This document shows positions 677 through 14,777 of a DNA stretch of 19,467 nucleotides, piece by piece. The translations under genes were made by a program, and so were the position numbers. The stretch is from Nitrososphaerota archaeon (lineage in GTDB: Archaea > Thermoproteota > Nitrososphaeria > Nitrososphaerales > CADDZS01): assembly GCA_021325255.1 (NCBI GenBank), contig JAJPHP010000055.1:1-19467 (forward strand), in the 5' to 3' direction. Positions within the stretch are counted from its first letter, which is position 1, and every line of letters starts with the position of its first letter. The notes below the pieces were generated by a model. It was not told where the DNA came from. It worked only from the letters and a program-made list of their open reading frames with translations, and searched no databases.

Positions 677-694
677 ATTATCAAACGTGAGAAT
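677..694. promoter_or_regulatory. Inverted-repeat operator between the HMA gene and the divergent membrane-protein gene
   Basis: ATTATCA-AACG-TGAGAAT is an imperfect 7-4-7 inverted repeat with one half-site of each type seen in this window (TTATCA and TTCTCA). On the plus strand a TATA-like CTTTAATTT follows 11 bases later (705-713), predicting transcription from about 730-738 towards the membrane-protein frame. On the minus strand the repeat overlaps TTTGATAATATCC, the likely TATA box of the HMA gene. It belongs to the same motif family as the sites at 10435, 11517, 12886 and 14358. Confidence 0.7.
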
Positions 695-730
695 TGTGTA
701 TGGGCTTTAATTTGCGCGAAGGGGTACATT

Positions 731-913
731 ATGCTTTGTGTGGGAGTGACTAGGATGATCACCGACATGAATCCGGAGGTGGCATCGACCAATAAAGCAG
801 CAGCAGAAAACTTTGCAGCATTCGTCATATCCATTGCAGGAGACACCCTGATTACTATCAGCTCGGTTCTTGGGTTTTCCTCCGCCACAACGGGAAGGCG
901 CTACTATTTTTAG
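731..913 (+). pseudogene. N-terminal part of a small membrane protein, interrupted by an in-frame TAG
   Basis: This frame runs from ATG 731 (alternative ATGs at 755 and 767) to TAG 911-913 and continues in the same phase through 914-925 into the open frame at 926-1195. It contributes one hydrophobic helix (AAFVISIAGDTLITISSVLG), then a Gly/Tyr-rich stretch RRYYF-stop-GFGGMMDGYTGY. Small archaeal membrane proteins of this kind typically have one N-terminal helix, a Gly/Tyr/Met-rich loop and two or three more helices. The continuation GFGG right after the stop therefore looks like coding sequence. The TATA-like box at 705-713 predicts a transcript start near 735, which favours ATG 755 or 767. 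It is either a nonsense-mutated gene, a sequence error, or two ORFs whose products work together. Confidence 0.45.
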
Positions 914-925
914 GGATTCGGAGGG

Positions 926-1195
926 ATGATGGATGGTTATACGGGCTATTCCTCGCTCAACACTGGTTTTTACTCGATGATGGCTGGGGTAGAACTTCTC
1001 GGACTGGTGTCGGGCCTACTTGTCCTGACATTCGCTATCTTGATGAGATTGGGACCTGAGAGCGCAAGGGTATTTGGAATACTTGTCCTTGCATTTTCTT
1101 TCCTTAGTCTGATTGGAACTGGCGGATTCTTCATTGGTGCTCTGCTTGGTATACTCGGTGGCTTTCTAGCCCTAACGAGTAGCTACAAATTGTAA
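926..1195 (+). CDS. Small multi-helix membrane protein (C-terminal part of the interrupted gene)
   Basis: An 89-residue protein with about three membrane helices: MMAGVELLGLVSGLLVLTFAILM, ARVFGILVLAFSFLSLIG and FFIGALLGILGGFLALTSS. The pattern 'P-E-x-x-R-x-x-G-I-L-V-L', then 'G-G-F-F-I-G-A-x-L-G-I-x-G-G', recurs in small archaeal and bacterial membrane proteins of unknown function (DUF4064/DUF6114-like by eye, not verified). GGAGGG directly before the ATGATG pair at 926/929 could act as a ribosome site for reinitiation, but it also encodes Gly-Gly in phase with the upstream frame 731-913. Relative to that family the N-terminal helix is missing here and is present upstream of the TAG, so the two frames were probably one gene of about 140-155 residues. 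Confidence 0.6.
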   Translation: MMDGYTGYSSLNTGFYSMMAGVELLGLVSGLLVLTFAILMRLGPESARVFGILVLAFSFLSLIGTGGFFIGALLGILGGFLALTSSYKL

Positions 1196-1392
1196 AGTCC
1201 TAGCATCCAAGTTTTTTGGCCGATCGGATCGACATGGTGAATCTTCTTCCCCTTGCAAATTTCCTAGCTCGTCTCGCAAATCGCTCCGCCTTCTCATTCT
1301 ACGTCCTTCTTTTTTATGCGTTCGCAGTGTTTCGGTTCAAATTTTGAACTCCAGAGACCTTTGAAATATCGACCCATTACATAGTACACTCT

Positions 1393-2181
1393 ATGCTACG
1401 AGTACGAGACTTGACGGTCGCATACAACAAGAGGTCAACTGAGGACCCGATCCTGAGAAAACTGAACTTGGAATTGAACCAAGAGAAGGCAGTGATAGTG
1501 GGACCGAACGGTTCGGGGAAATCCACTTTGTTCAAAGCAATCCTGGGTCTCGCCCCGATTTCTGGAGGGGCCGTGAAGCTATTTGGCATAGACGCGATGA
1601 GTGAAAGGCAGGATACTCGAGTCTCGACGAACCTGGCCGAGGTCTACAGGATTGCCTACGTTCGTGTTCGAGACCTCGTGAGCATCTTTGCAGAGCTGAA
1701 AGGAGGGAATCCTCAGGAGACTCTCGGGATGTTCAGAGATTTTGAACTCGAGTCGATACTCGGGAAGAAGGTTCACGAGCTCAGCACCGGGCAGGCGAAG
1801 ATGTTCGGCAACATACTCGCTGTCTGCTTTTCCCCCAAACTCATCTTGCTCGACGAGCCTTTTGACAACGTGGACAATAGGAGGAGAAGAAGATTCATCG
1901 AGATTCTCAGGGGACTCGATGTTGAAACGGTAATCATCACACACGAGTTCAACCTCTTGCAGCGACTCGGAGACTGGGGTCTGTATTCCATGCTAGAGGG
2001 AAGGCTCTGGGGAAAATTCTCCGTGTCTCAACTAGACAGGCTCTTCATCACTCGAGGTGATATGAGGGATGCCCTTGGAGTAATGGACACGAGTTTGGGA
2101 AAACTCTCCGTCACTCTGGATCACGGCGACATCGCAGTCAAGACGGCGAGGAGTCTCAACGCAGTGCTGGGGGAGGTGTAG
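1393..2181 (+). CDS. ABC transporter ATP-binding protein
   Basis: A 262-residue cytoplasmic ATPase that energises the permease encoded next door. Walker A is GPNGSGKST at residues 37-45, the signature is LSTGQ at 130-134 (a variant of LSGGQ), Walker B is LILLDEP at 150-156 and the H-loop histidine is H184 in ITHEF. The usual Q-loop glutamine is not evident: the corresponding stretch reads STNLAEVYRIAYVRVRDL. The C-terminal 60 residues extend beyond the ATPase core. The order ATPase-permease with a 7-base gap fits an exporter of the ABC-2 type; no substrate-binding protein is present, which argues against import. AAATATCG at 1363-1370 is a plausible TATA box 26 bases before ATG 1393, implying a leaderless message. 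Substrate unknown. Confidence 0.9.
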   Translation: MLRVRDLTVAYNKRSTEDPILRKLNLELNQEKAVIVGPNGSGKSTLFKAILGLAPISGGAVKLFGIDAMSERQDTRVSTNLAEVYRIAYVRVRDLVSIFAELKGGNPQETLGMFRDFELESILGKKVHELSTGQAKMFGNILAVCFSPKLILLDEPFDNVDNRRRRRFIEILRGLDVETVIITHEFNLLQRLGDWGLYSMLEGRLWGKFSVSQLDRLFITRGDMRDALGVMDTSLGKLSVTLDHGDIAVKTARSLNAVLGEV

Positions 2182-2188
2182 AAAGAAA

Positions 2189-2998
2189 ATGTCGCTCCTC
2201 AAGTATTACACGAAGGGAATTCTCTCGAACAGAAACCTGTGGTTCTGGGGAGTAGCCTTCATGATCTTTTGGCTGTTCCTCTACGCGTTCAGCTTCGCGC
2301 AGGGCGTCCCAAAGACGCAACCAGCTTTACTAGAGTTCTCGGCCTTCTCGTATGGATCAATCGCTCTGTTTTCATCGAGCTCGCTAGCGATCAGCATCGC
2401 GTACTCGATTTACTATGCTAGTTCCTCGCTAGTATACTCGTTCCGATTTACGAGACTAAATCTATCGTCTTACATCGCAACTCTCATCGGGAGCTCCTCA
2501 GCACTCGGGATTATCCTAAGCGCCATAATGATCGCGTGCACCTATATCATCATATTCAGCCTCAAATTTGGCTTCAACCTGGCTCCGGCGAATCAATTAG
2601 GCGCTTTCGGAGTCTCGGCTCTGGCTGGTGTCTTCATGATGACGTTCGCATTGTTCTTGGTTCTGCTCGTGGTAAACTATGCGGGCCTGCAGAACATCAG
2701 CCTCGTAACCTTCATCCTGTTGATATTAGCCTTCGGGCTGGGTCTTGCGACGGTCAACTCTCCGCTGCCCACTGGTTTGCTTTACGGGTCGCCCTACAAC
2801 GCAATACAGACACTTCTCTACACGACCTACTCTGGACTTGCCGCGCACGCCCAACTCAGTGATCCGACGAGCGCGATACTCCAATGGCAATACATGGTCG
2901 CATCCCTAATCGCGTGGATAGTCTTGCTCCTTGGGGTCGACGGTCTCCTACTCAGGAGGCTCAAACCAAGGCAAGCAGAAGAGGGAAGACAGATTTAG
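2189..2998 (+). CDS. ABC transporter permease (ABC-2-like membrane subunit)
   Basis: A 269-residue integral membrane protein with about six or seven hydrophobic segments: near residues 18-38, 50-72, 95-127, 135-163, 167-188 and 235-255. A charged C-terminal tail (RRLKPRQAEEGRQI) probably faces the cytoplasm. Starting 7 bases after the ATPase stop, with AGAAAGAAA before its ATG, it is almost certainly co-transcribed with it and forms the membrane channel of the exporter. Sequence alone gives no strong subfamily signature; ABC-2 type is inferred from length, helix number and gene order. It ends with TAG, one of several ordinary uses of TAG as a terminator in this window. Confidence 0.8.
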   Translation: MSLLKYYTKGILSNRNLWFWGVAFMIFWLFLYAFSFAQGVPKTQPALLEFSAFSYGSIALFSSSSLAISIAYSIYYASSSLVYSFRFTRLNLSSYIATLIGSSSALGIILSAIMIACTYIIIFSLKFGFNLAPANQLGAFGVSALAGVFMMTFALFLVLLVVNYAGLQNISLVTFILLILAFGLGLATVNSPLPTGLLYGSPYNAIQTLLYTTYSGLAAHAQLSDPTSAILQWQYMVASLIAWIVLLLGVDGLLLRRLKPRQAEEGRQI

Positions 2999-3014
2999 TT
3001 GTGGAGCACGACTC

Positions 3015-3703
3015 TTGCTGAGGCGGTGGGCACAGCACCTGTTGTCTGATGAAGATATCACAGCGGCAAAGCTCGGCGAAATCGCAAATCGGGCCCTCAC
3101 CTTTCAGCGGTACATTTTCAGGAGGGCGTGGCGGACCTACTATGCGATCTGGGCCGCGGCGTTTGTTGTATTCGTCTTCGGCAACTTCCTCCCCTCCAAA
3201 AGCTCGTCCCACAGAGCCTAGCATGGGTCCCTTACGCCGTGCTCTATGCAGCAGTGGGGTGGGGCTCCGGGATCGCTACGGCCCTGATATTCAGAAATGC
3301 GCTCCGCACCTTTTTCCTTCGAAAGGCCACGAGACCCTATCAGGAGCGCAAGTATGCCCTAATTTGGGTCTGGTGGGTAGCCTTCTATGTCATAGTTTAT
3401 TTGTCGTTCAACTTCCTTCCAAAGGACGCGCTTTCGATCCTGTACGCATTGCTGTCTTCGGTCGAGATTTTCATATACTATGGTCTCAAAATGTCCTTCC
3501 AGGACAAGATACCGATTGAGGGAAAACTCGTCCTCTGGTCATACGGTGTCTGCGTTGTCTCGAGTTTCTTTGTGTCTCTGTTCCCGAGCGCCTTCTTCTT
3601 TATCCTCGCGGTAATCTGGACAATCAACATCGCCGTGTGGCTATTCTGCGCGCTCTACTCCCTGAGACAAGCATCGGATGAATTGGCGGCGTTGGTGTAT
3701 TGA
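3015..3703 (+). pseudogene. Six-helix membrane protein with a frameshift near 3191-3201
   Basis: Two overlapping frames make one protein. The first starts at TTG 3015 (GGAG at 3003-3006) and encodes a soluble segment (SDEDITAAKLGEIANRAL) and the first helix (YAIWAAAFVVFVFGNFLP). It then loses sense at SKSSSHRA. The second frame becomes sensible from KLVPQSLAWVPYAVLYAAVG and carries five more helices to the TGA at 3701-3703. The frames meet at the homopolymers CCCC (3191-3194) and AAAA (3198-3201), as though one base were missing. The restored product would be about 229 residues. It follows the permease by 16 bases and overlaps the next possible start (ATG 3703), so it belongs to the ABC operon, perhaps as an accessory membrane subunit. 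I do not recognise the family. Cause could be a sequencing error or a true mutation. Confidence 0.65.
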
Positions 3704-3848
3704 TGGAGGAAGGAGAGGAGGAAGCAAAGCGGCAACAGGTCACGGATAAAGACAGAGATCCGCCGTCCCGAGACACTTCTCTCTCTTCGTCACACACATC
3801 ACCGCCGGGGGCAGGCGGCGCCGAGGACGCCCTGAAATCTCTGGGACC

Positions 3849-4124
3849 GTGTTCAGCGACCCGTGTCTCAAGTCTTCAACGCGGATACTGATACTTTTCT
3901 CACTCGCGCTCAACTCAAGACTCGGGTTCGTTGACCTGCTGAATCTGACGGGCACTGGAAAGGGGAGCCTGAGCAACCATCTGGAGAAGCTTGAGGCCGC
4001 GGGCTACATCAGGACAAGGAGCACCATGACTTTTAGTGAACCAAGAATTGTAGCTGAGATTACCGAAAAGGGACTTGAATCATACAAGACACTCGTGAAG
4101 ACCATAGGGGAGCTGCGAAAATAG
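3849..4124 (+). CDS. Winged-helix transcriptional regulator (ArsR/MarR-like, HTH_34 type)
   Basis: A 91-residue DNA-binding domain. SSTRILILFSLALNSRLGFVDLLNLTG forms the first helices. GKGSLSNHLEKLEAAGYI is the recognition helix region, close to the family pattern 'GNLSxHLxKLExAGYV'. RTRSTMTFSEPRIVAEITEKGLESY is the wing with the usual T-x-K/E-G. Single-domain regulators of this kind normally dimerise and control neighbouring transporters, so it probably regulates the ABC operon. The GTG 3849 start lacks a clear ribosome site. A second frame from ATG 3703, overlapping the previous stop, runs up to this region and could be a displaced N-terminal extension (see findings). A T6 run just after the stop would end the operon. 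Confidence 0.8.
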   Translation: MFSDPCLKSSTRILILFSLALNSRLGFVDLLNLTGTGKGSLSNHLEKLEAAGYIRTRSTMTFSEPRIVAEITEKGLESYKTLVKTIGELRK

Positions 4125-4132
4125 CGACTCAC

Positions 4133-4138
4133 TTTTTT
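4133..4138 (+). terminator. T-run terminator after the ABC operon
   Basis: Six consecutive T on the coding strand, 9 bases after the stop of the winged-helix gene. Archaeal RNA polymerase terminates at such runs without a hairpin. Confidence 0.55.
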
Positions 4139-4288
4139 CTCTGATCCGAAGACTTGACCACTGTAACGGGTTCCAGAAATAGGGTATGCAAATTTTGGAT
4201 TGCAACATGTTTCGATGGACTCTGAAAATTGCACTAGTGAGTTGTCCACTGTGCTCTAAGAGGAAAAAGAAGTGGAAAAAGTACGCTT

Positions 4289-4303
4289 CAATATTTATTA
4301 TAA
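4289..4303 (+). promoter_or_regulatory. TATA box of the VIT-like gene
   Basis: A 15-base A/T-only stretch around TATTTATTATA, about 60-70 bases before ATG 4361. A start site near 4323 would leave a leader of about 35-40 bases carrying GGGGAG at 4342-4347. This is the most A/T-rich spot in the 4125-4360 intergenic stretch. Confidence 0.5.
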
Positions 4304-4360
4304 CATTACAACTTCTTATCCAATTCAATTCAGGGCATGGTGGGGAGAGAGACATAGAAC

Positions 4361-4771
4361 ATGGCTTTGAAACGCGTCTCAAATTACTTGGGCAGATTCT
4401 GGACAGGGACCGAAGCTGCGTATGGAGTAATAATTGCTATGACATTTACGAGCACCCTGCGCGGCCTCAGCGATATCACATGGCAGGAACTCTACTCGAC
4501 TGTTGTGTTTACCGCTCTCTTCTGCTGCATAGCTTGGGGCATCGCAGACGGCTTCTTTTACGGGTGGGAGCGTAACTTCAATACACGGATGCAAGAGAAG
4601 ATTGTGGAATCGGCAAGATCTAGTGAGGACAAGAAGAAGGACCTCGCAATTTCGTTACTGCACGAAGAGCTTGACGATTCGATCATGGGTACATTCGACG
4701 CGCCGGTTAGGCAGAGAATCTACGAGAGGATAGTCGAGTATCTTTCAGAGACCGAGGTTGATGTGAAATAG
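4361..4771 (+). CDS. VIT1/CCC1-like transporter, N-terminal part, ending at an in-frame TAG
   Basis: A 136-residue frame. EAAYGVIIAMTFTSTLRG is the first helix and ALFCCIAWGIADGFFYGW the second; together they match the family pattern of VIT-like proteins ('VFGVxxxLTFTGTL...', then 'xxCNxAWGIIDGxxY'). The rest is the long soluble linker (KIVESARSSEDKKKDL to RIYERIVEYLSE). VIT/CCC1 proteins move Fe2+ or Mn2+ across membranes; this subgroup is uncharacterised, so substrate is inference. The frame ends at TAG 4769-4771. Only four codons later, in the same phase, ATG 4784 opens the segment with the remaining helices. The two frames therefore look like one gene of about 225 residues. Confidence 0.7.
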   Translation: MALKRVSNYLGRFWTGTEAAYGVIIAMTFTSTLRGLSDITWQELYSTVVFTALFCCIAWGIADGFFYGWERNFNTRMQEKIVESARSSEDKKKDLAISLLHEELDDSIMGTFDAPVRQRIYERIVEYLSETEVDVK

Positions 4772-4783
4772 CCTAGCGCGAGG

Positions 4784-5038
4784 ATGTACCCAACGATAAT
4801 ATTCGGCACTTTCTTGCTGTCTGCAGGCGCTGGAGTAATTGTCCTGATCCCCTTATTCATTTTCAGAAACGTGCTGTACGCAATCACAATCTCCAATATA
4901 CTGGGAGTATCCGTGCTGTTCCTAGTCGGGTTCTTCAGGCAGTACGAGAAGGGTTTCAGGAGAAGGGTGGCGGCAGGGACTGTAGCTGCTTTGCTTGGCG
5001 TGCCAATTGCCTTCATCACAGTAGTACTAGGCGGCTAA
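4784..5038 (+). CDS. VIT1/CCC1-like transporter, C-terminal part
   Basis: An 84-residue hydrophobic protein with three helices: TIIFGTFLLSAGAGVIVLIP, VLYAITISNILGVSVLFLVG and AAGTVAALLGVPIAFITVVL, ending in the family-typical 'LGG'. The motif 'A-x-x-x-S-N-x-x-G-V-x-x-L-F-x-x-G' is the expected C-terminal half of the VIT-like family named for 4361-4771. It is in the same reading phase as that frame, separated by TAG-Pro-Ser-Ala-Arg. Its own ATG has only a weak ribosome site (GCGAGG immediately before), so independent initiation is doubtful unless coupled to termination of the first frame. It converges on the HxlR gene 33 bases away. Confidence 0.65.
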   Translation: MYPTIIFGTFLLSAGAGVIVLIPLFIFRNVLYAITISNILGVSVLFLVGFFRQYEKGFRRRVAAGTVAALLGVPIAFITVVLGG

Positions 5039-5071
5039 CTAATCTCCGACTCTCTTCCTTTCACTTGATAA

Positions 5072-5464
5072 CTACTTTTCAGGCAGTTGTGGAAGCCACT
5101 TCCTTCCCCACTCGCCCATTGCTTCGAACACACTCTCGAGTGCGGTTCCCGCTGGCGAGAGGGAATATTGTACGGTGAAGGGGCGAGTCGAGATGACCTG
5201 GCGTACAACTATTCGATTATGCTCTAATGATTTTAGAGCGGAAGAGAGGGTCTTAGAATTAATGCCAGAATACCTCAGAAGTTCGTTGAAGAGCTTCGGA
5301 CCCTGAAGCAGGTACCTAATCACGAGCAACTTTGACTCGGAACCTATGCTCTCGATGGTCGCAACAGCAGGGCAGCCATCCTTCACGCTCACTTTGTCTT
5401 CGTCAACGTCGAAGATGCTCCCGCTCTTGTGAAAGGTGGTTCTCAGCTTCAATCTCGCTGCCAT
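5072..5464 (-). CDS. HxlR/DUF24-family redox-type transcriptional regulator
   Basis: A 130-residue winged-helix protein. The family opening 'CPVxxxLxxIGGKWxxLILRxL' appears as CPAVATIESIGSESKLLVIR from residue 31. It is followed by GPKLFNELLRYSGINSKTLS (DNA-recognition helix), LKSLEHNRIVVRQV and the wing FTVQYSLSPAG. About 30 extra residues precede the usual start. C31, followed by proline, sits at the position of the redox-sensing cysteine of Bacillus YodB, CatR and HypR. Those are homologues that repress genes for quinone, diamide or hypochlorite resistance. The gene diverges from the DoxX-CatE pair, and a TTACC-N4-GGTAA palindrome lies in the shared intergenic region. It therefore probably represses both itself and that pair. 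ATG 5464 is the only upstream ATG. Confidence 0.88.
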   Translation of the reverse strand: MAARLKLRTTFHKSGSIFDVDEDKVSVKDGCPAVATIESIGSESKLLVIRYLLQGPKLFNELLRYSGINSKTLSSALKSLEHNRIVVRQVISTRPFTVQYSLSPAGTALESVFEAMGEWGRKWLPQLPEK

Positions 5465-5487
5465 GCGCTGTAGTAAACACCACCAGG

Positions 5488-5501
5488 TTACCTAAGGGTA
5501 A
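5488..5501. promoter_or_regulatory. Operator TTACC-TAAG-GGTAA, probably bound by the HxlR regulator
   Basis: A 5-4-5 inverted repeat midway between the two divergent starts. TTTATAGG (5509-5516), a likely TATA box for the DoxX gene, begins 7 bases downstream, and the repeat occupies the place where the HxlR gene's own promoter elements should lie. Bound protein could block both directions. Short inverted repeats of this size are typical DUF24 targets; the link to this regulator is inferred from position. Confidence 0.55.
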
Positions 5502-5559
5502 GTTCTAGTTTATAGGCTTGATTATATCCACTAACTATAGAAAGTCAAGTGATCACTGC

Positions 5560-5985
5560 ATGACAAATAACACATTGTTGTTAGAACCTTTCCTAGCGTA
5601 TGTCCCCTACCTTGCACTCCTAGTAAGGGTAGTCGTTGGAGGCACATTGATGATCCACGGCTATCCCAAAGTAAAATCAAGAGAACAGAGCATGAATTGG
5701 ATGAAGAGCATGGGGCTGCCGGGAGCAACTGCCTTGATTGCAGGAGTCTTGGAGTTCTTCGGTGGTTTGCTTCTGGTAGTCGGGTTGATTGTCCCAATAA
5801 TAGGCTTCTTCCTTGCTATTCAATTCGCATCAATAATACTAATGAAGAAGAGCAGGATGAAGGCGTCGTACGTGAGTACTAGCAAGGTCTCTTTCGAGAT
5901 AGATGCCTTGTACTTGCTCCTTGCCATCATCTTGATAGTTATTGGCGCGGGTGTGCTTTCGATCGACGGGCTGGTCGGCTACTAG
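5560..5985 (+). CDS. DoxX-family membrane protein (CatD-like)
   Basis: A 141-residue protein with four membrane helices. VRVVVGGTLMIHGYPKV gives the DoxX signature 'R-x-x-x-G-x-x-F/M-x-x-x-G-x-x-K', then the typical GLPGATALIAGVLEFFGGLLLVVGL with the conserved E-F-x-G-G. A basic loop KKSRMKAS follows, and a last helix ALYLLLAIILIVIGAG. In bacteria CatD-type DoxX proteins are encoded with catechol dioxygenase CatE and respond to quinone or thiol stress; here a CatE-like gene starts 20 bases downstream. I chose ATG 5560 over TTG 5518 because promoter-like TATA sequences (5509-5516 and 5520-5526) overlap or follow the TTG start and because the DoxX domain starts just after ATG 5560. The biochemical role of DoxX is unsettled; it is thought to couple to membrane quinones. 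Confidence 0.85.
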   Translation: MTNNTLLLEPFLAYVPYLALLVRVVVGGTLMIHGYPKVKSREQSMNWMKSMGLPGATALIAGVLEFFGGLLLVVGLIVPIIGFFLAIQFASIILMKKSRMKASYVSTSKVSFEIDALYLLLAIILIVIGAGVLSIDGLVGY

Positions 5986-6004
5986 ATAGCAAAGAAAAAA
6001 AGGT

Positions 6005-6946
6005 GTGTCTGGATTGAATAATAGGACTTTGGCAGAGGAAAGGATAATCAAATTGCCCGCTGAGGCACGAGTCGGGCCTCCAATTTTGAGAGTGAAGGAC
6101 CTGGATCGAGTGCTCGCCTTCTACCGGGATGTCCTAGGACTCCAAGTGAAGCGCCCTGGTCAGGATCAAGAGAGTGTAGAGCTCGGGTTCGGAGAGCAAA
6201 TAGGAAAATTTGGCTCCGCAGCCAGCGATCCACTGCTTGTGTTGAAGTACGATCCTAGCGCGAAAGAAAACCCGCGCAGCTCTTCAGGCCTATATCACTT
6301 TGCTATCCTCGTACCTGACAGAAAGAGCCTTGGGCATGCATACTCGGCTATTGAGAAAAGTCGTCAGGTGCATTTCGACGGATTTGGAGACCACTTGGTC
6401 AGCGAGTCGCTCTACCTTCACGATCCGGAACACAACGGAATAGAGATTTACAGAGATAGACCGCGTAGCGAGTGGCCGCGCGACAAGGAGGGTCGTATCA
6501 TGATGGACACTTTGGCATTAGACCTGCCAGCGATATTGGACGAGTCGTCGCGGGATGAACAGGAGACTTCGAGTGCATTCCCATATGGAGCGAGGATTGG
6601 GCACATGCACCTCCGCGTCACAAATCTAGAAAGATCAGTAAAATTCTATCATGAGAAGCTTGGACTCGATATTGTCTTGAATCTGTCGTCAATGGCTGCT
6701 GCGTTCCTCTCGGCTGGAGGCTACCACCATCACATCGGATTGAACACTTGGCACACTCTCGACGGAAAGCATCATGAACCAAGCGAGGCGGGGCTGGACA
6801 CATTCACGATTGAGGTGCCCGCTGGTAATACCCCACTTCGCCAATTACGATCTCAACTTGAGAGTGCGCTCTTGCCCGAGACAAGAGAGCGGGAACTATG
6901 GGTATCCGACCCGGATGGCATTCCAATAAGAATCAGGTTCATATAG
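6005..6946 (+). CDS. CatE-like two-domain VOC protein (catechol 2,3-dioxygenase family)
   Basis: A 313-residue cytoplasmic protein with two vicinal-oxygen-chelate modules in tandem, as in Bacillus CatE. The first runs from GPPILRVKDLDRVLAFYRDV to HDPEHNGIEIYRDRP. The second starts GHMHLRVTNLERSVKFYHEK, continues through GGYHHHIGLNTWH and ends at DPDGIPIRIRF. GHMH and HHHIGLNTW supply the histidines expected around the metal. CatE enzymes open the ring of catechols by extradiol cleavage, removing quinone precursors; the exact substrate here cannot be read. The start is GTG 6005, 19 bases after the DoxX stop, with only a weak ribosome site (AAGGTG region), so it is most likely read from the DoxX message. 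An in-frame later start would remove little of the first module. Confidence 0.85.
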   Translation: MSGLNNRTLAEERIIKLPAEARVGPPILRVKDLDRVLAFYRDVLGLQVKRPGQDQESVELGFGEQIGKFGSAASDPLLVLKYDPSAKENPRSSSGLYHFAILVPDRKSLGHAYSAIEKSRQVHFDGFGDHLVSESLYLHDPEHNGIEIYRDRPRSEWPRDKEGRIMMDTLALDLPAILDESSRDEQETSSAFPYGARIGHMHLRVTNLERSVKFYHEKLGLDIVLNLSSMAAAFLSAGGYHHHIGLNTWHTLDGKHHEPSEAGLDTFTIEVPAGNTPLRQLRSQLESALLPETRERELWVSDPDGIPIRIRFI

Positions 6947-7057
6947 AATCCTCCCTTTCTTACGCAGATTTCCGGAGTGAGTAGTTCCACGAAGTTGCTT
7001 GTGCTAACTAAATTCCGAGGGAGGTCGTAGAAAAGATAGTGTATGCGATCACTAACA

Positions 7058-7663: not shown

Positions 7664-7928
7664 TGTCAAAACAGATACCTTCCTTCCTCGCTTCCTGCTT
7701 TCCTTCCTTCAGCTCTCTTTTAGACCGCTATTGTTTCATTTAAGTTATTACTAAAATTCTCACCAGTGTAGTGGTAATAGCTGCGTGTTCCCATTGAGCG
7801 CTCGATGTTTCTTACCTTCTTTCTTTGGAGCTAGACGTTCTCATTCGCTCGGTGAATAAAGGCAAAGAAGACAAGCTTTAGGTGAATGTCTTCCCAATGT
7901 AAACATCACTGGTGTCTAGCTTTACATT

Positions 7929-9383: not shown

Positions 9384-9389
9384 GAGAGA

Positions 9390-9395
9390 TTTTTT
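9390..9395 (+). terminator. T-run terminator after the flavoprotein gene
   Basis: Six T residues 7 bases after the TAG stop, in GAGATTTTTTCTACC. No hairpin precedes it, as is usual for archaeal intrinsic termination. Confidence 0.55.
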
Positions 9396-9526
9396 CTACC
9401 TTTATCTCCAAAAGTGTGTAATGAATTTTGCTAAGTCGCACTCTATCTTTCCTCCCGAACAAAAATCGTAGAAGGCTTTTATCAAAGTAGGGCGATCTAT
9501 CACATTTACGGTGAGACGACAAAGAG

Positions 9527-9709
9527 TTGTCAAGCTACAAATTTAGGTGCAAGGATATCGGAATGAAGGACTGCGACTTTGAATTGAAGGGCGCATCTTC
9601 AAGGGACGAAGTAATGCAGGAGGCCTCGACTCACGCAAAGTACGCACACAACATGGAGACAATCACTCCGGACTTGGCAGGCAAAGTGGACTCTGCAATA
9701 AAGAGCTAG
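9527..9709 (+). CDS. DUF1059 small Cys/His protein
   Basis: A 60-residue protein matching the DUF1059 pattern: YKFRCKDIGMKDCDFELKG at the start, then HAKYAHNM. C8, C16, H36 and H41 are the conserved residues and could hold a metal, though no member has an established function. Start TTG 9527 with GGTGAG at 9510-9515; a TATA-like CTTTTATC lies at 9476-9483, giving a leader of about 20 bases. DUF1059 genes are common in archaea and are often found near stress or redox genes, which fits this neighbourhood (flavoprotein upstream, rubrerythrin downstream on the other strand). Confidence 0.82.
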   Translation: MSSYKFRCKDIGMKDCDFELKGASSRDEVMQEASTHAKYAHNMETITPDLAGKVDSAIKS

Positions 9710-9910
9710 ACTTCGCTGGTGGGCGAGGCAGACCCTTCCCCCGCTACAAGATGTACTTTTTCAAAGGCACGTAGAGCTTCTGAGCCGGGAGTGTGCAACT
9801 GCTTACAACAGTCAACAGTATCGGCGATGGAGAGCGTAATGCCTCTCAGAAGCATTTTTGGATTTCATGAGTATGCTCTCGGCTGAGCGTACAGTCTATT
9901 TCCGGCGTAT

Positions 9911-9936
9911 AGGTAGGCGCTAGGTTATTCCTACCT
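9911..9936. repeat. 7-bp inverted repeat beyond the rubrerythrin stop
   Basis: AGGTAGG (9911-9917) and CCTACCT (9930-9936) can pair around a 12-base loop, 22 bases past the rubrerythrin stop on the minus strand and between convergent genes. It may help define the 3' end. There is no strong T-run, and a stem of this size is not far above chance, so the role is tentative. Confidence 0.3.
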
Positions 9937-9957
9937 TACCAGGCGGGGCTTCTTGCG

Positions 9958-10374
9958 CTAAAGCGATTCTAAAGCTGATTTGTAGGCAGCGAGGTGGGTC
10001 TTTTCATCATTTCGTATTTCCGAGAACCTTTCTGCGACTGCTAGATCTCCGGCGGCTTTCGCCTCTTCCGAAAAGTCCTTGTACATCGTCGTGACTTCGT
10101 AAGACTCTCCATCTATCGAGTCCTCGAGATTCTTTTCATCGTTTCCAACCAGTCCGAAAAGTTCTGCTTCTTCCGCAAAGTGTTCGAATCGTTCCACATT
10201 GGCAGTCTTCTCGAAGAGCTCTGCCAATTTCGCATGTCCGTTCTTCTTTGCAGCTTCTGAGAAGAGCATGTATTTCACATATGCAAAGGCTTCTCCATGC
10301 ATGGCTTCTAACAGATGTTCGCGCGTCTTCTCGCCTAGAGGTCTTTTTCCTTTTTCGACTAGAGTCCTTGACAT
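9958..10374 (-). CDS. Rubrerythrin-family diiron protein (ferritin-like, no rubredoxin domain)
   Basis: A 138-residue four-helix protein. Candidate iron ligands are E28 (MHGEAFAY), E61/E64/H65 (VERFEHFAEEAELFGLVG), E90/E93 (GESYEVTTMY) and E124-x-x-H127 (RNDEKTHLAAY). Proteins of this group reduce peroxide at a diiron site; the C-terminal Cys4 rubredoxin domain of classical rubrerythrin is missing, so an external electron donor is needed. ATG 10374 is chosen over TTG 10392, which coincides with the predicted transcription start. TTTTATAC at 10414-10421 is the TATA box. A palindromic operator (10435-10450) sits 12 bases further upstream and places this gene in the putative regulon shared with the ferredoxin fusion and the cDPG synthetase homologue. 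No gene lies within 300 bases on the same side. Confidence 0.88.
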   Translation of the reverse strand: MSRTLVEKGKRPLGEKTREHLLEAMHGEAFAYVKYMLFSEAAKKNGHAKLAELFEKTANVERFEHFAEEAELFGLVGNDEKNLEDSIDGESYEVTTMYKDFSEEAKAAGDLAVAERFSEIRNDEKTHLAAYKSALESL

Positions 10375-10434
10375 TTCGACATCACAGTCCAAGAAAACTA
10401 GATCTCGGAGCCCGTATAAAAGACGGGGACACGG

Positions 10435-10450
10435 TTATCATTTGTGATAA
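10435..10450. promoter_or_regulatory. Operator upstream of the rubrerythrin promoter
   Basis: TTATCA-TTTG-TGATAA, a perfect 6-4-6 palindrome. Read towards the gene, 12-13 bases separate it from TTTTATAC (10414-10421). Motif and spacing match the sites at 11517, 12886 and 14358, which suggests an activator that contacts the pre-initiation complex from just upstream of BRE/TATA. Confidence 0.75.
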
Positions 10451-10708
10451 TCAGATAACAAAGCTGGAAGACAAAGTGACTCGTCCAACGATGAGCGGGC
10501 GCCTACTCATCTTAGCGTTTGCGTGAAATCGCTTTCGTAATGAACGACTCGCCTTGGCGTTGGAGAAGGAGACGATGCTCATGCCTTCGAAGGGCTCGAG
10601 CACAGATCCGGGATGGAATTGGATAAACGGACTTCTATTTTTTTCTCTCGCTCTCACACCCCTTTTCTCCAGATTATCCAAGGAGTTGAGCGTACTAATT
10701 CCAATGGC

Positions 10709-11200
10709 TTAGTGGTACGGAGAAGCGGACGTCCCCGGAGGTCCTATCTGAGCCCTAATTTTTGATTCGATCATGGACTTGGGAACTGCTCCAACAATCC
10801 CATCGACGACTCTACCATTTTTGAATATCAAGATCGTGGGAATGCCCTGCACTCGATATTGAGAAGATATATTGGGGTTTTCATCCACGTTGAGCTTGCC
10901 AAAGGTCACTTTTCCAGCGTATTCTCTGGCTAGCTGCTCAACTACCGGCGAGACCATCCTGCATGGACCGCACCAAGGAGCCCAGAAATCAACGACTAGA
11001 AGCTCATGTCGCTTCAGAGCATCAAAGAAATTCGCCTCGCTTAGCTCGATTGGACTCGTGACAAGAGGCCTGCTGCCACTGTTGCTCTCTTTGCTGCTCT
11101 CCGCAGACAGGGTTTTTCTCTGCATCAGCTCGGCGAGCTTCCTCTGCTTTATCCTTTCAAGTTCCGGATCGGCCCCTGTTTCGCCTTCTCCAAACGACAT
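10709..11200 (-). CDS. Thioredoxin with a PDCD5-like N-terminal extension
   Basis: A 163-residue protein. Residues 55-155 form a thioredoxin fold with the active site W76-C-G-P-C80 in [12 protein letters not shown], cis-proline P121 in GIPTILIF and the usual [16 protein letters not shown]. It reduces disulfides in cytoplasmic proteins. The first 50 residues are an extension: [19 protein letters not shown] closely resembles the N-terminal helix of archaeal/eukaryotic PDCD5 (TFAR19), followed by a Ser-rich linker. ATG 11200 starts exactly before this acidic, then basic segment. CAAATATAG at 11246-11254 on the minus strand is a likely TATA box, predicting a leader of about 25 bases. No inverted-repeat operator is seen at this promoter, unlike its neighbours. 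Confidence 0.93.
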
Positions 11201-11587
11201 TTGTGAGATCTATACGCCTCTCGCAGAATGTACAGAGACGTAGATCTATATTTGGGGTTATCTTACCCTGTTTGCTTCTGCGCACGATCCTACTGGAACC
11301 ATGAGGAAAGCAATTGCAAATTGTGAACTCGTTGATTTCAAATTACACTCAAAAGCCATCGCAACGCAATCGGACTCCTGCGGCAAGGAAAGAGTGATGG
11401 ACAGGGAATTTCTCCTTTCCTAGTTTGTCCTCGTTTGCGTTGATTATCATAACTTACAGATGAAGAGAAAAGCGAACTTTGACGCCGGAGAGCCCTTTAT
11501 GGTGCAAGTTCGACTCCGATTATCATTGATGATAATCGTACTCTCCTCTTAATAACAACGCTTACGTTTTCTATTAATCTGCGGGAG
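11201..11587. other. Intergenic region between divergent thioredoxin and 11.6 kb genes
   Basis: It holds the thioredoxin TATA box (11246-11254), the strong operator at 11517-11538 and TTAATAAC (11549-11556) as TATA box for the plus-strand gene. The middle (about 11290-11500) contains a lone TTATCA half-site at 11443-11448 and no gene, repeat or tRNA that I can support. Confidence 0.5.
11517..11538. promoter_or_regulatory. Strong operator upstream of the 11.6 kb gene
   Basis: CGATTATCA (11517-11525), spacer TTGA, TGATAATCG (11530-11538): a perfect inverted repeat with 9-base arms, the best example of the family in this window. The inner 16 bases match the 6-4-6 core. TTAATAAC begins 10-11 bases after the 9-base arm (13 after the core), the same geometry as at the rubrerythrin and ferredoxin promoters. 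Confidence 0.78.
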
Positions 11588-11605
11588 ATGAAAGGAGAGG
11601 GCATC

Positions 11606-12028
11606 ATGCAACCTCAACAAATTGCAAAAGGAGAACTTCTTGGGGAGTTTCGCGGCAAGGCTGTCTCGACTACGATCAAAGAAGTCACTCCGTTTGGCAT
11701 GAGATTAGAACAAAACATCCAAGGGGAATTTGTGGGAGCCAAGTATTCCGCTCGCCAGACGCAGACTACCGATCTCTTCCAGAGAATTGACGGGACTTAC
11801 GAATACGAGACGAAGATATTTGAGCAAACAAACGAGGGCGACTTTGTATTGGCCGTTACTCACGGGACTGGAAAGATGACGGGGCCAACTACGCACAAGG
11901 GCGAAGGGGAAATAGTCCACATGGCTCAGTCGCCGAAATTCGCTTGGCTGAACAATCTCAAGTGTAGGGTCGAAATGACCGGCGACGCGTCGACTGGAGA
12001 AATCTCCGGCAAAGTCTTCACACTCTAG
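11606..12028 (+). CDS. Unknown beta-rich protein, possibly DUF3224/avidin-like barrel
   Basis: A 140-residue soluble protein with alternating beta-strand character and no signal peptide or cysteine cluster (a single Cys in NLKCRVEMTGD). Features: AKGELLGEFRGKAVSTTIKE, a central DGTYEYETKIFEQTNEGDFV, a Gly/Thr-rich turn HGTGKMTGPTTHKGEGEIV, and a final strand EISGKVFTL. The 'G-x-G-x-x-T/G-P ... G-x-G' turns suggest a small barrel like DUF3224, but I cannot confirm the family. ATG 11606 is preferred over ATG 11588 because GGAGAGG lies five bases before it; the upstream ATG would add MKGEGI. The promoter carries the strongest operator of the set, so the protein is likely induced with rubrerythrin and the ferredoxin fusion. 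A hairpin and T-rich terminator follow the stop. Confidence 0.75.
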   Translation: MQPQQIAKGELLGEFRGKAVSTTIKEVTPFGMRLEQNIQGEFVGAKYSARQTQTTDLFQRIDGTYEYETKIFEQTNEGDFVLAVTHGTGKMTGPTTHKGEGEIVHMAQSPKFAWLNNLKCRVEMTGDASTGEISGKVFTL

Positions 12029-12049
12029 GAGATAGAGAGAATAAGGTAA

Positions 12050-12085
12050 AGAAGAGGGCCTCTTCTCACTCTTCAATTTTTGTTG
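12050..12085 (+). terminator. Hairpin plus T-rich terminator
   Basis: AGAAGAGG (12050-12057) and CCTCTTCT (12059-12066) form a near-perfect inverted repeat 21 bases after the stop, followed by CAATTTTTGTTG. It would end the 11.6 kb transcript. Confidence 0.5.
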
Positions 12086-12375
12086 TTATGATCAGATTTC
12101 TATACCTGACTCGAAATGTGTGATTCGAGCGCCGCAAGCTGAAGTCCCTTTTCCGAAATCGATTTCATTCAAACTGTAAATAATCTTGCTAAATCACAAT
12201 GGAATCTTGACATAGGCGGCGAACCTTTGTTTGATGCAAAGGCGTAGCCGCGATGACTGCTGGCTACGGTATAGACAACATCGCAGAGAAAGAAATCGGT
12301 ACGATTCGAAACGGGGAGTTGTCCCTCTGTCTTTGGCCTGATTGCCTTGCTCTTTGGCGAGAGTTCTCTCCCTTT
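12086..12375. other. Convergent intergenic stretch with several small stem-loops
   Basis: No protein gene is supported; an open frame at 12253-12543 is mostly the antisense shadow of the ferredoxin gene. Inverted repeats: CTCGAA-N8-TTCGAG at 12110-12129, CCTTTG-N7-CAAAGG at 12224-12242 and CGTAGCC-N12-GGCTACG at 12243-12268; the last two abut. TATA-like CTGTAAATAATC at 12174-12185 would place a start near 12206, just before the tandem stems, so a small RNA is conceivable. Each stem alone is near chance level. Confidence 0.3.
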
Positions 12376-12822
12376 TCAGAGAGGAACCTCCTCTCCGCTC
12401 TCCGCGTCAACTATTCTGATTGCCTTGTAGGGACAGGACCTCGCGGCCTCGATTATCCTCTCGCTGTCGATCTCCCTTGGCATGACATCCCTCATCGCAA
12501 GAGGCGCGTCCCTTCCCCCCGCTCTCACGAGCCCGAGGTTTGATTCATCTAACGCAAAGACCTCCGGCGCGAGCTGGACGCAGCTCTCGGCGCCCATGCA
12601 CACCCCCTGGTCTATGCTCAAGATGAGTCTCTTGTTATCCCTAGTCACGATCTCCTTATCCCCTCTCCTCTGGAGACCGTCGAGCTTGCTTGAGACGAGC
12701 CTCAGGATTACATCGGAGTAGTTCTCGTCCTTCCTCTTTGCCCACGTGAGTTTGTTGAAAGCCTTGGAGTTCAGCGTTACTATCCTTTCAGCTTCTTCCT
12801 GTTCACTTGTTAGTTCGGTCAA
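12376..12822 (-). CDS. Ferredoxin domain fused to a VapB/RHH-like N-terminal domain
   Basis: A 148-residue protein. Residues 66-145 are a monocluster ferredoxin: DQGVCMGAESCVQLAPEVFA and SCPYKAIRIVD give cysteines C75, C81 and C130. The central cysteine of a [4Fe-4S] motif is absent, as in actinobacterial P450-partner ferredoxins, which carry [3Fe-4S]. Residues 13-45 (RIVTLNSKAFNKLTWAKR, then ENYSDVILRLV) resemble the strand-helix-helix of VapB/DUF217-type antitoxins, a DNA-binding fold, though no toxin gene is adjacent. It may be an electron carrier with an unusual tail or an Fe-S-sensing regulator. Start TTG 12822 (no ATG in frame); GGAG about 10-12 bases upstream. TTTTTATC (12867-12874) is the TATA box, with an operator at 12886-12903 just above it. 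Confidence 0.82.
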   Translation of the reverse strand: MTELTSEQEEAERIVTLNSKAFNKLTWAKRKDENYSDVILRLVSSKLDGLQRRGDKEIVTRDNKRLILSIDQGVCMGAESCVQLAPEVFALDESNLGLVRAGGRDAPLAMRDVMPREIDSERIIEAARSCPYKAIRIVDAESGEEVPL

Positions 12823-12885
12823 ATTTTACAATCTCCACTTCCAGGATAGCACTATGTACGCAATCAGATAAAAACACCCGATACG

Positions 12886-12903
12886 ATTCTCAAAGTTGAG
12901 AAT
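12886..12903. promoter_or_regulatory. Operator upstream of the ferredoxin-fusion promoter
   Basis: ATTCTCA-AAGT-TGAGAAT, perfect 7-base arms with a 4-base spacer. On the minus strand, 11 bases separate it from TTTTTATC. It uses the TTCTCA version of the half-site, like the cDPG synthetase site at 14358-14375. Confidence 0.75.
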
Positions 12904-12942
12904 GCTAGTTTGTGCATGTGAATTGCATATGCTGGGATTCTC

Positions 12943-14289
12943 CTACTGCCGAGTTAGCTTCATGATTTCGATCGAATGCTTTGAAGCGAACTCAATAATT
13001 GCTTCTCTTATCGTTGACCCTCCAACTTCTTCGATCTCATATGTGACCCTCAAGGTCGGCCTCCGGATATGCAAGAACTTTGCGAGGTCGACTGGCGTGC
13101 CTACAATTACCAAATCGCACTCTGCCCGATTGATTGTCTCCTCGAGTTCTTTCCTTTGCTCCTCGCTATATCCCATCGCCGGAAGGACGGGCCCAAGGTG
13201 CTTGAATTTCTGGAAGACTTCCTTGAGCGAGCCGACGGCGTATTTTCTCGGGTCGAGAATCTCGCCTGCTCTAAATCGAGTTGCCACTTTGTAAGCCGCG
13301 CCAGTGGACAGGCCTCCGTGGGTTAGTGTAGGCCCATCCTCGATGCAGAGGACTCTCTTTCCTTCAATCGCTTCGGAGTTTTCGGCACTGTCTCTCAGAT
13401 TTGAAAGTATGATCTTCGTCCTTGGGTTCAATGCTTTCAAGTTAGCAAGAATTTGTTCGGTGTTCTCCTCGGGCGCCGCGTCCACCTTGTTGACGATGAT
13501 ATAGTCGGCCATCCTCGCGTTTGTTTCGCCTGGGTGGTAGGTCAGCTCGTGCCCCGGGCGCCTAGCATCCGCAACGACGAAAAGAAGATCTGGTTTCACG
13601 AAGGAGAAATCATTGTTTCCACCGTCGAAGATTACAATGTCTGCTTTCTCTTCCGCGAGTTTCAAAATCCTGGAGTAATCCACGCCGGCGTAGACCGGAA
13701 AGCCGTTTGCCAGGTGGGCCTCATACTCTTCCCTCTCCTCGATCGTAGTATGGTATCTTTCGAGGTCATCGAAGGAAGTAAACTCCTGCACGGCCTGACT
13801 TCGAAGATCTCCGTAGGGCATAGGGTGCCGAATTATTGCAATGCGGTACCCCATGTCTCTAAGCATGCGCGAGATCTTCCTCACAGTGGGACTCTTGCCC
13901 GCGCCAGTGCGGACGGCGCAGACTGCGACGACAGGCTTCTTTGAGACGAGCATCGTGTCCTTCGGGCCCAGAAGGGCAAAGCTCGCTCCACTAGCTAGGG
14001 CAATAGAGGCTTTGTGCATGAGTTCGACATGCGAAACGTCACTATAGGAGAAGACGACCTCGTCCACCTTGAGCCTACTTATCAAATCAGGGAGTTGCTC
14101 TTCGGGGTAGATTGGGACCCCGTCGGGATACCTGGGGCCCGCGAGTTCGGCAGGAAACTTTCTGTTTTCAATACCCGGGATCTGGGTCGCGGTGAAGGCT
14201 ACAACCTGGAACTCTGGCTTGTCTTTGTAGTAGGTAAGAAAATTGTGAAAGTCTCTTCCTGCCGCTCCGAGTATGATTACTCTTCGCAC
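12943..14289 (-). CDS. cpgS: Cyclic 2,3-diphosphoglycerate synthetase family protein
   Basis: A 448-residue protein with an N-terminal Rossmann-like segment (RRVIILGAAGRDFHNFLTYY) and a nucleotide-binding P-loop AVRTGAGKSP at residues 125-134. Further family motifs are FDGGNNDFSF and ADARRPGHELTYHPGETN. The length and the whole motif series agree with the cDPG synthetase family, which in hyperthermophilic methanogens uses ATP to close 2,3-diphosphoglycerate into the cyclic compound, a compatible solute and phosphate store. Homologues are widespread in other archaea and bacteria whose cDPG has not been shown, so the reaction is inferred. GTG 14289 is the start; CATTAATATTCGG around 14334-14346 is the TATA box (about 25 bases above a start site near 14313). 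An operator at 14358-14375 tops it. It lies 120 bases upstream of the ferredoxin promoter but has a separate promoter. Confidence 0.85.
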   Translation of the reverse strand: MRRVIILGAAGRDFHNFLTYYKDKPEFQVVAFTATQIPGIENRKFPAELAGPRYPDGVPIYPEEQLPDLISRLKVDEVVFSYSDVSHVELMHKASIALASGASFALLGPKDTMLVSKKPVVAVCAVRTGAGKSPTVRKISRMLRDMGYRIAIIRHPMPYGDLRSQAVQEFTSFDDLERYHTTIEEREEYEAHLANGFPVYAGVDYSRILKLAEEKADIVIFDGGNNDFSFVKPDLLFVVADARRPGHELTYHPGETNARMADYIIVNKVDAAPEENTEQILANLKALNPRTKIILSNLRDSAENSEAIEGKRVLCIEDGPTLTHGGLSTGAAYKVATRFRAGEILDPRKYAVGSLKEVFQKFKHLGPVLPAMGYSEEQRKELEETINRAECDLVIVGTPVDLAKFLHIRRPTLRVTYEIEEVGGSTIREAIIEFASKHSIEIMKLTRQ

Positions 14290-14777
14290 GATAATTTAGA
14301 CATCCCTCTCAGAATAATCAAAGATTGGCATGACCGAATATTAATGATAGGAATACAATTCTCACGATTGAGAATCACATACCGTGTTTTCGCTGTACTC
14401 TCGTTCTTGGCCGTTCCTCGGCTTTGAGGATCGACCGCCTGCCACAAGTTTCTTACTTTCACCGACTAAACCTAAACTAGACCATTTGTTTTGAGTACGA
14501 TTCTTTCATAAAACGACTTGCTCAATATGAAATCTCTGATCGTGCCTTGATAGCAAAATGCCGTATGATGCGTGCGCGATTATCTATCTTCTCTTTTTTC
14601 GCTTCATATTTTCGTGGTAAAACTGTAGCTCTTATGCCGGATTGTGTTCAATAGTCTGGGGCCTTTTCCAGACTTGCGCACAACTCTATCTCAATTTCTT
14701 ATTATCATCTTTGGTGATCAGCTTCTTCCATAAATCCCAGCTAGTCGCTAGATCAAACCTAGTGCATCTTTAACGCA
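14290..14777. other. Long intergenic region between cpgS and the CPBP gene
   Basis: The cpgS-proximal end holds its TATA box and operator. Beyond that I find no supported gene. GTCTGG (14654-14659) pairs with CCAGAC (14668-14673) around an 8-base loop. TTATCA at 14702 followed by TGATCA at 14715 looks like the operator family but has the wrong spacer (7) and a mismatched arm. No tRNA features were seen. Confidence 0.45.
14358..14375. promoter_or_regulatory. Operator upstream of the cpgS promoter
   Basis: ATTCTCA-CGAT-TGAGAAT, perfect 7-base arms. The distance to the TATA box on the minus strand (TAATATTC) is about 14 bases, close to the other sites. The half-site is identical to that of the ferredoxin operator. 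Confidence 0.75.

Follow-up and report, generated by a model that had tools for sequence, protein, structure and literature searches.

Five copies of one palindrome, TTMTCA-N4-TGAKAA, occur at 678-693, 10435-10450, 11520-11535, 12887-12902 and 14359-14374 of a 19,467-nucleotide stretch of DNA from a Nitrososphaerota archaeon (contig JAJPHP010000055.1; hereafter, the window), which raises the question of whether they mark promoters under common control and, if so, what kind of control this might be. We assign a probability of about 0.78 to the reading in which the palindrome serves a transcription activator as its operator, controlling a regulon through a nearly fixed promoter unit. What the sequences show is the enrichment of the site, its position, its spacing to the TATA box and its conservation.

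All five sites are exact matches to the motif put forward in an initial annotation of the window. As it had claimed, the arm pairs are perfect in four of them (the exception is the site at 678, TTATCA / TGAGAA), and the sites are intergenic in that none lies inside an open reading frame (ORF) of at least 100 aa, as called by a crude ORF caller. The site at 14359 falls within a 61-aa ORF and that at 678 overlaps the end of an 87-aa ORF, both ORFs being unsupported. The five matches do lie far above chance, with a mean of 0.01 expected from 200 dinucleotide shuffles, of which none had five and the maximum was one. The initial annotation was right that six-base arm pairs with one fixed spacer arise a few times by chance: there are 7 in the window at spacer 4 and 1 to 9 at every other spacer from 0 to 10. 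The shuffle statistic alone overstates the case because the motif was read off the same window; the motif was therefore applied unaltered as a pre-set test in other genomes.

Enrichment of the palindrome in related genomes

The sample consisted of 151 genomes of the Nitrososphaerales, namely G001 (a Nitrososphaerales archaeon, the nearest named relative, 2.7 Mb, reached through L001, which is 75% identical to the cpgS-like protein of the window at 12943-14289 and stands on a 201-kb contig) and 150 others, with the reversed pattern as control. G001 has 33 sites vs 1 match of the reversed control, and 20 of the 33 share a contig with the cpgS-like gene. Site and control counts of the plain motif were 60/1 in G058, 28/1 in G051, 22/0 in G034, 14/2 in G071, 13/2 in G033, 11/0 in G081, 10/0 in G053, 10/2 in both G050 and G132, 9/1 in G065 and 9/3 in G043. 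Intermediate counts were found in G007 (8/1), G092 (8/2) and G044 (7/0), and most of the 151 genomes are near their own controls. A strict motif that includes the flanks, CGATTMYCA-N4-TGRKAA, was counted as strand matches, where one site can score on both strands. It gave 2 control matches in all 151 genomes together, compared with 43 strand matches in G058, 28 each in G001 and G051, and 27 in G034. Any strict match was present in 39 of the 151 genomes, and 15 genomes with at least three strand matches make up the enriched set. G033, G050, G132, G092 and G044 have no strict match, and their plain matches were therefore taken as background. The initial annotation had staked its regulon on a motif more frequent upstream of genes than in shuffled DNA, and enrichment over the reversed control in relatives proved strong. 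On the evidence of sequence, the regulon is real.

Position of the sites and spacing to the TATA box

A total of 182 sites were read with their flanks: all of those in G001, G051, G034, G033, G043 and G065, 50 of the 60 in G058, 13 of the 14 in G071, and the five of the window. G033, with 8 of its 13 sites inside ORFs and no strict match, was treated as background and left out when position and TATA were counted, which leaves 169 sites. The distance from site to called start is -10 to 130 bp for 133 of the 169 and 30-80 bp for 100, with a peak near 50-67 bp, and 14 sites are inside ORFs of at least 100 aa. When 122 site-gene pairs with the start 30-100 bp off were aligned, the flanks read ACGA...TCGT, and an A/T block appeared at +14 to +19 with 84-93% A/T per position, whereas no position from there to +70 exceeds 70%. 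The extended consensus is ACGATTMTCA-N4-TGAKAATCGT, and the regulator would be predicted to bind ACGATTCTCA-N4-TGAGAATCGT. Among the 94 unambiguous sites, those for which only one side has a gene start at 30-100 bp, a hexamer with at least 5 of 6 A/T stands at +14..+19 on the gene side in 89 vs 25 on the other side. The count falls to 7 when the hexamer is moved to +20, and random hexamers of the same loci satisfy the A/T threshold 13% of the time.

Archaeal regulators activate from upstream of the transcription factor B recognition element (BRE) and TATA box, and repress from downstream (PMC4158304, PMC9426492 and PMC6737238). The sites lie where the operator of an archaeal activator lies, upstream of BRE/TATA, and by this analogy their geometry is that of an activator. 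The fixed spacing between site and TATA box thus argues for activation rather than repression, and activation is the most likely mode. In the proposed mechanism, a dimer would bind the palindrome immediately upstream of the BRE and, after a gap of 13 bp, the TATA box would follow at constant spacing, so that the bound protein would be placed for recruitment of TBP and TFB and would switch the promoter on. The promoter unit would be nearly fixed, with the start codon mostly some 50-67 bp past the site. We infer dimer binding, activation, the nature of the signal (reducing or low-oxygen conditions and energy limitation) and the identity of the regulator. The predicted regulon would comprise roughly 20-60 promoters in four members of this Nitrososphaerales-related group with large genomes and about 9-14 in several others, and in related lineages it would be a small core (the HTH_10 regulator, an HTH_20-linked membrane protein and a Usp gene) with the drifted half-site TTNYCA.

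Conservation at orthologous promoters

Promoters of the ferredoxin fusion gene were examined in 14 of 39 rows, second copies and rows with the ferredoxin domain only being excluded. Eleven orthologs have at least 50% identity, and 10 of them are testable (the one in G051 begins at a contig edge); five of the 10 promoters carry an exact site, three a site with one strict mismatch, and two none. For the cpgS-like gene, 26 of 31 rows were examined, leaving aside G130 and the split fragments of G094 and G085, and a site is present at all four orthologs of at least 70% identity. Two of these sites are exact and two are relaxed (TTNYCA-N4-TGRNAA), one of the latter being 118 bp from the gene. Conservation at orthologous promoters, on which the initial annotation had also made its proposal depend, is therefore seen at close orthologs (8 of 10 for the ferredoxin fusion and 4 of 4 for the cpgS-like gene). 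The presence of sites at close but not at distant orthologs indicates that the operator tracks the lineage and not the gene, and that the regulon is lineage-limited. Enrichment and orthologous promoters together point to a regulon under one operator, with conservation in close orthologs only.

Target genes and theme of the regulon

Recurrent targets were defined as genes whose start is no more than 300 bp from a site in at least three of the eight genomes and the window. They code for Usp and CBS proteins, the ferredoxin fusion, CoA-transferase, short-chain dehydrogenase, the HTH_10 regulator, carbamoyltransferase, a VKOR-like protein, class-IV aminotransferase, glutamate dehydrogenase, the cpgS-like protein, a small ferredoxin, HTH_20, an exported protein unmatched in Pfam, and molybdo/flavo-enzyme subunits of two types. 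Scanned with Pfam, 117 proteins starting 25-110 bp from a site yielded 92 families, the commonest being CBS (8), Usp (7) and Fer4_15 single-cluster ferredoxins (6). Other targets include subunits of molybdo- and flavo-enzymes, small ferredoxins and enzymes of amino-acid catabolism, and HypC-like genes are found near sites, one by a below-cut-off match (L104:3014-3304) and one by eye (L178:12114-12368).

This target set may be read as an economy of energy and redox under electron-acceptor or nutrient limitation, or as a low-oxygen regulon, and the palindrome is probably part of a genome-wide switch with a theme of redox and energy metabolism. The proposed redox/metal stress regulon thus holds in part for redox, through the Usp, CBS and Fe-S targets, but metal stress was not established, and a redox/energy theme is more likely than a metal one. 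No metal-resistance family is among the 25 commonest of the 92 target families, and in the window the HMA gene falls outside the activator geometry. A metal link could come from G001 (L096:557-1944), where a TMEM175-like gene starts 63 bp after a site and is followed about 30 bp on by a VIT1-family gene (L096:1243-1944) that could be co-transcribed with it under this one site. In G043, genes that look by eye like DUF302, sulfide-quinone reductase, TusA and DsrE genes lie between two sites (L177:2680-5137), which suggests a link to sulfane sulfur. In G058, an AsnC-type regulator with a cysteine-rich C-terminal motif (L143:973-1614) has a site 54 bp upstream.

Candidate regulators

The regulator probably belongs to one of two families, HTH_10 or HTH_20, at about equal odds, since evidence from promoter sites and from co-occurrence is available on both sides and both therefore stay candidates. 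Co-variation of the half-site drift with the recognition helices of HTH_10 or HTH_20 was viewed by eye and is not decisive.

With a chance somewhat short of even, the regulator is a four-cysteine HTH_10 protein (A or B) that would sense redox state or oxygen through an Fe-S cluster or thiols, like the haloarchaeal NarO, and would activate both the regulon and itself. HTH_10-A proteins (L146, L195, L221) have 214-225 aa and a C-terminal HTH_10 domain, and PF04967 is the sole domain above cut-off in all three, i.e., they are HTH_10 proteins without PAS or GAF. A relaxed site stands 42-60 bp upstream of the aligned start in 19 of the 24 best HTH_10-A orthologs and one more has a site with one mismatch; in all 20 of these promoters, 5 or 6 of the 6 positions at +14..+19 are A/T. 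The half-site in these promoters drifts from TTCTCA to TTTCCA and remains largely palindromic. HTH_10-A or HTH_10-B is present in 13 of the 15 enriched genomes vs 16 of the 136 others, a co-occurrence that is only suggestive. All 24 HTH_10-A orthologs keep the four cysteines, which are also present, as judged by eye, in 17 of 20 database relatives, but the three most distant of the 20 are without two of the four. NarO likewise has four conserved cysteines, but its spacing is unlike that in HTH_10-A (C-x57-C-x9-C-x2-C in P0001). The predicted structure of HTH_10-A is a confident model, with a mean predicted local distance difference test score of 88.7, and has two alpha/beta repeats ahead of the DNA-binding helices. 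No solved relative was found by sequence, and Foldseek returned poor global matches only, with a TM-score of at most 0.24 over the query among the 50 matches listed. The same family includes NarO, described as an oxygen sensor, and DmsR, both of them anaerobic regulators that also have no PAS/GAF (PMC11218638). A variant motif, ATTYYCA-N4-TGRRAAT, was tried in 20 genomes with HTH_10-A, of which four belong to the enriched set, and was rejected as the mark of a large regulon, with 0-6 sites vs 0-7 in 20 genomes without HTH_10-A. Whole-genome counts of this variant do not separate HTH_10-A genomes; only position-specific sites do.

It is comparably possible that the regulator is HTH_20, an ArsR-like winged-helix protein whose DUF7521 membrane partner may relay a membrane or energy signal, in which case HTH_10 would be merely a target. 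A winged-helix dimer would fit a 6-4-6 palindrome, in which one helical turn separates the half-sites. HTH_20 is found at E <= 1e-19 in 14 of the 15 enriched genomes vs 26 of the 136 others, and the exception, G058, has it at 4e-17, so that with this looser cut-off HTH_20 is present wherever the regulon is. Some non-enriched genomes with HTH_20 retain a few relaxed sites. The HTH_20 gene has a site in its own promoter in G001 (67 bp), G043 (69 bp) and G071 (45 bp), and HTH_20 genes are situated within site clusters, but such a promoter site is found in a minority of the members examined, and HTH_20 is a large family with several copies even in genomes without enrichment. The loci L110-L139 (e.g., L118:1470-2180) repeatedly show a small HTH_20 gene with a DUF7521 membrane gene behind it, in several cases next to a Usp gene; Pfam assigns DUF7521 in L110 and L118. 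In 11 of 30 loci, the stop codon of HTH_20 is followed after 9-13 nt by a relaxed site with an A/T hexamer (TATA). The form TTCCCA-N4-TGRGAA occurs 757-1042 bp before HTH_20 in 13 of 30 loci, with the A/T hexamer facing away in 12, and in at least five loci the start of a Usp-like gene is 34-48 bp away (by Pfam in L117; by eye in L118, L119, L121 and L131). An HTH_10-B gene adjoins an HTH_20 gene within site clusters at L102:7388-8656, L167:4320-5559 and L178:2518-3725.

Alternative explanations and evidence against an activator regulon

The sites might instead serve an MsvR-, DtxR- or HxlR-like repressor of genes for redox, peroxide or metal stress, in keeping with the redox/metal stress regulon first suggested. 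Rubrerythrin and ferredoxin are among the targets, the VIT1-family gene in G001 is possibly co-transcribed with a target, and an HxlR protein of the window (5072-5464) resembles the redox regulator RrpB at 59.9 bits, below the cut-off of 175. However, the sites lie 13 bp upstream of the TATA box and cover neither the TATA box nor the start, their bases are unlike those of the MsvR operator, the promoter of the HxlR gene is without a relaxed palindrome, and many targets are energy and amino-acid genes; we regard a repressor as improbable. Chance, or a repeated mobile element in place of an operator, would be in line with a motif that was picked after looking at one window, but it is hard to square with 33 sites vs 1 control in an independent genome, with spacers and flanks that vary, with genes that differ from site to site and with a fixed TATA spacing, and we give it a negligible probability.

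Several observations weigh against the activator regulon or the regulators proposed for it. Plain motif counts alone can mislead, as in G132, G050, G092 and G044; the gene starts were taken from a crude ORF caller; and an A/T hexamer is found on one side even in 10 of the 13 background sites of G033 (157 of 169 elsewhere). The target gene of the site at 678 was itself picked through TATA geometry. As for conservation, 2 of the 10 ferredoxin-fusion orthologs of at least 50% identity have no site, and sites are found in none of three ferredoxin promoters at 38-39% identity and in none of 22 cpgS-like promoters at 48-58% identity (the one in G112 has one mismatch). As for the regulators, 4 of the 24 HTH_10-A promoters and all six of the more distant relatives are without a site. 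HTH_10-A is missing at cut-off from 7 of the 15 enriched genomes, which disfavours it as sole regulator; its paralog HTH_10-B is found in 5 of these 7, but the HTH_10-B promoters in L102, L167, L178 and L203 have no site within one mismatch. G109 is without both HTH_10-A and HTH_10-B, and G017 has weaker matches only. HTH_20, in turn, is not confined to genomes with the regulon, being present in 26 of the 136 non-enriched ones. The co-occurrence tests for both families are confounded by phylogeny.

The five sites of the window and their genes

All five sites of the window have 6 of 6 A/T at +14..+19 on one side, and at four of them the gene put forward as target in the initial annotation lies on this side. 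The site at 678 (TTATCAAACGTGAGAA, 678..693, + strand, imperfect arms) has the TATA-like TTAATT at +14..+19 on the + side, and the HMA gene on the - strand is disfavoured by CTCGAG at the TATA position. The likely targets are therefore a 52-codon hydrophobic ORF at 755..913 (+), whose ATG is 61 bp past the site and which by its geometry is a candidate first gene, and the gene for a DUF6114 membrane protein at 926..1195 (+), which starts 12 bases after this ORF and is probably the second. The DUF6114 protein is weakly similar (E 6e-04, single comparison) to a membrane protein in G071 (L222:1121-1483), the gene of which has a site 65 bp upstream; a Pfam scan of the L222 and L176 proteins returned no family.

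The site TTATCATTTGTGATAA (10435..10450, -), with TTTTAT at +14..+19 on the - side, is 43 bp from the start of a gene for a rubrerythrin-type ferritin-like protein (9958..10392, -). The site TTATCATTGATGATAA (11520..11535, +) has 9-base arms including the flanks and TTAATA at +14..+19 on the + side, and it is 53 bp from the start of a gene for a 146-aa protein (11588..12028, +) that has no family match in Pfam or NCBIfam at the thresholds used. The site TTCTCAAAGTTGAGAA (12887..12902, -), with TTTTAT at +14..+19 on the - side, is 65 bp from the start of the CopG-like/ferredoxin fusion gene (12376..12822, -), a marker of the regulon. The fusion protein joins a CopG-like N-terminus to a single-cluster ferredoxin, and it matches 129 proteins at E <= 0.001, several of the 120 listed carrying the source name 'ferredoxin/predicted CopG family antitoxin'. 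The site TTCTCACGATTGAGAA (14359..14374, -), with ATTAAT at +14..+19 on the - side, is 70 bp from the start of the gene for the cpgS-like P-loop protein (12943..14289, -). The name cpgS is unconfirmed for this gene, which in Pfam and NCBIfam has weak cobW-, LpxK-, MobB- or HypB-like matches only, and relatives of its protein at 53-60% identity are found in many bacteria and archaea.

Significance and comparison with known systems

The palindrome predicts co-regulated genes and marks promoters to the base in organisms represented by genomes derived mostly or partly from metagenomes. It ties the uncharacterised ferredoxin fusion, the 146-aa protein, DUF6114 and DUF7521 to Usp, CBS and Fe-S metabolism, and it points to two named regulator families. 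Tentatively, it may serve a global redox/oxygen regulon in which 20-60 promoters of Nitrososphaerales-related archaea are activated by a four-cysteine HTH_10 sensor of NarO-like type, possibly in concert with HTH_20/DUF7521. If so, this would be a functional analogue of FNR or DosR in these archaea, and one of the rare archaeal regulons in which operator and core promoter form a fully fixed unit, at a constant 13 bp to the TATA box. DosR-type hypoxia and dormancy regulons, which are under a bacterial two-component system, also contain many Usp, CBS and ferredoxin proteins; the likeness is in gene content only, and the motif is unrelated.

Few archaeal activators are known (PMC6737238), and no description of this motif or of such a regulon was found among the matches listed from the open-licence papers searched. 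The listed papers that matched a text search for the motif did so through two 8-mers, and none of them spells it in full. The MsvR operator, TTCGTA-N4-TACGAA as quoted in the initial annotation, has the same 6-4-6 architecture but different bases; the five window sites, where alone this motif was looked for, do not match it, and the MsvR model, with a cut-off of 220 bits, gives two regulators of the window 19.9 and 16.6 bits. TATCAC-N5-GTGATA of the Thermococcales (TrmBL1/Tgr) is likewise a genome-wide palindrome that activates from upstream of BRE/TATA (PMC4158304), but this Thermococcales glycolytic motif differs in bases, spacer and targets, and it also occurs downstream as a repressor site. 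The Tar (TK0271) operator, TGGACA-N8-TGTCCA, is also a palindrome upstream of BRE/TATA, and Tar activates in vitro (PMC6737238); it differs from the window operator in bases and spacer and serves three operons only.

NarO and DmsR, of the HTH_10 (bacterio-opsin activator) family without PAS/GAF, serve anaerobic respiration in haloarchaea (PMC11218638), and the candidate HTH_10-A is also an HTH_10 protein without these domains. In H. mediterranei, a denitrification semi-palindrome, CGAAYATDKTYG, is located 66-79 nt before the start codon in three of four promoters, and its mutation significantly lowers activity at two promoters (PMC10062603). The authors of that paper found no narO gene in this organism, so that a link between the semi-palindrome and NarO is not shown there. 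Compared with the window operator, CGAAYATDKTYG has other bases, no N4 spacer and other target genes. By analogy, rather than as proof of membership, NarO and the denitrification element may be the nearest parallel to how the palindrome could work.

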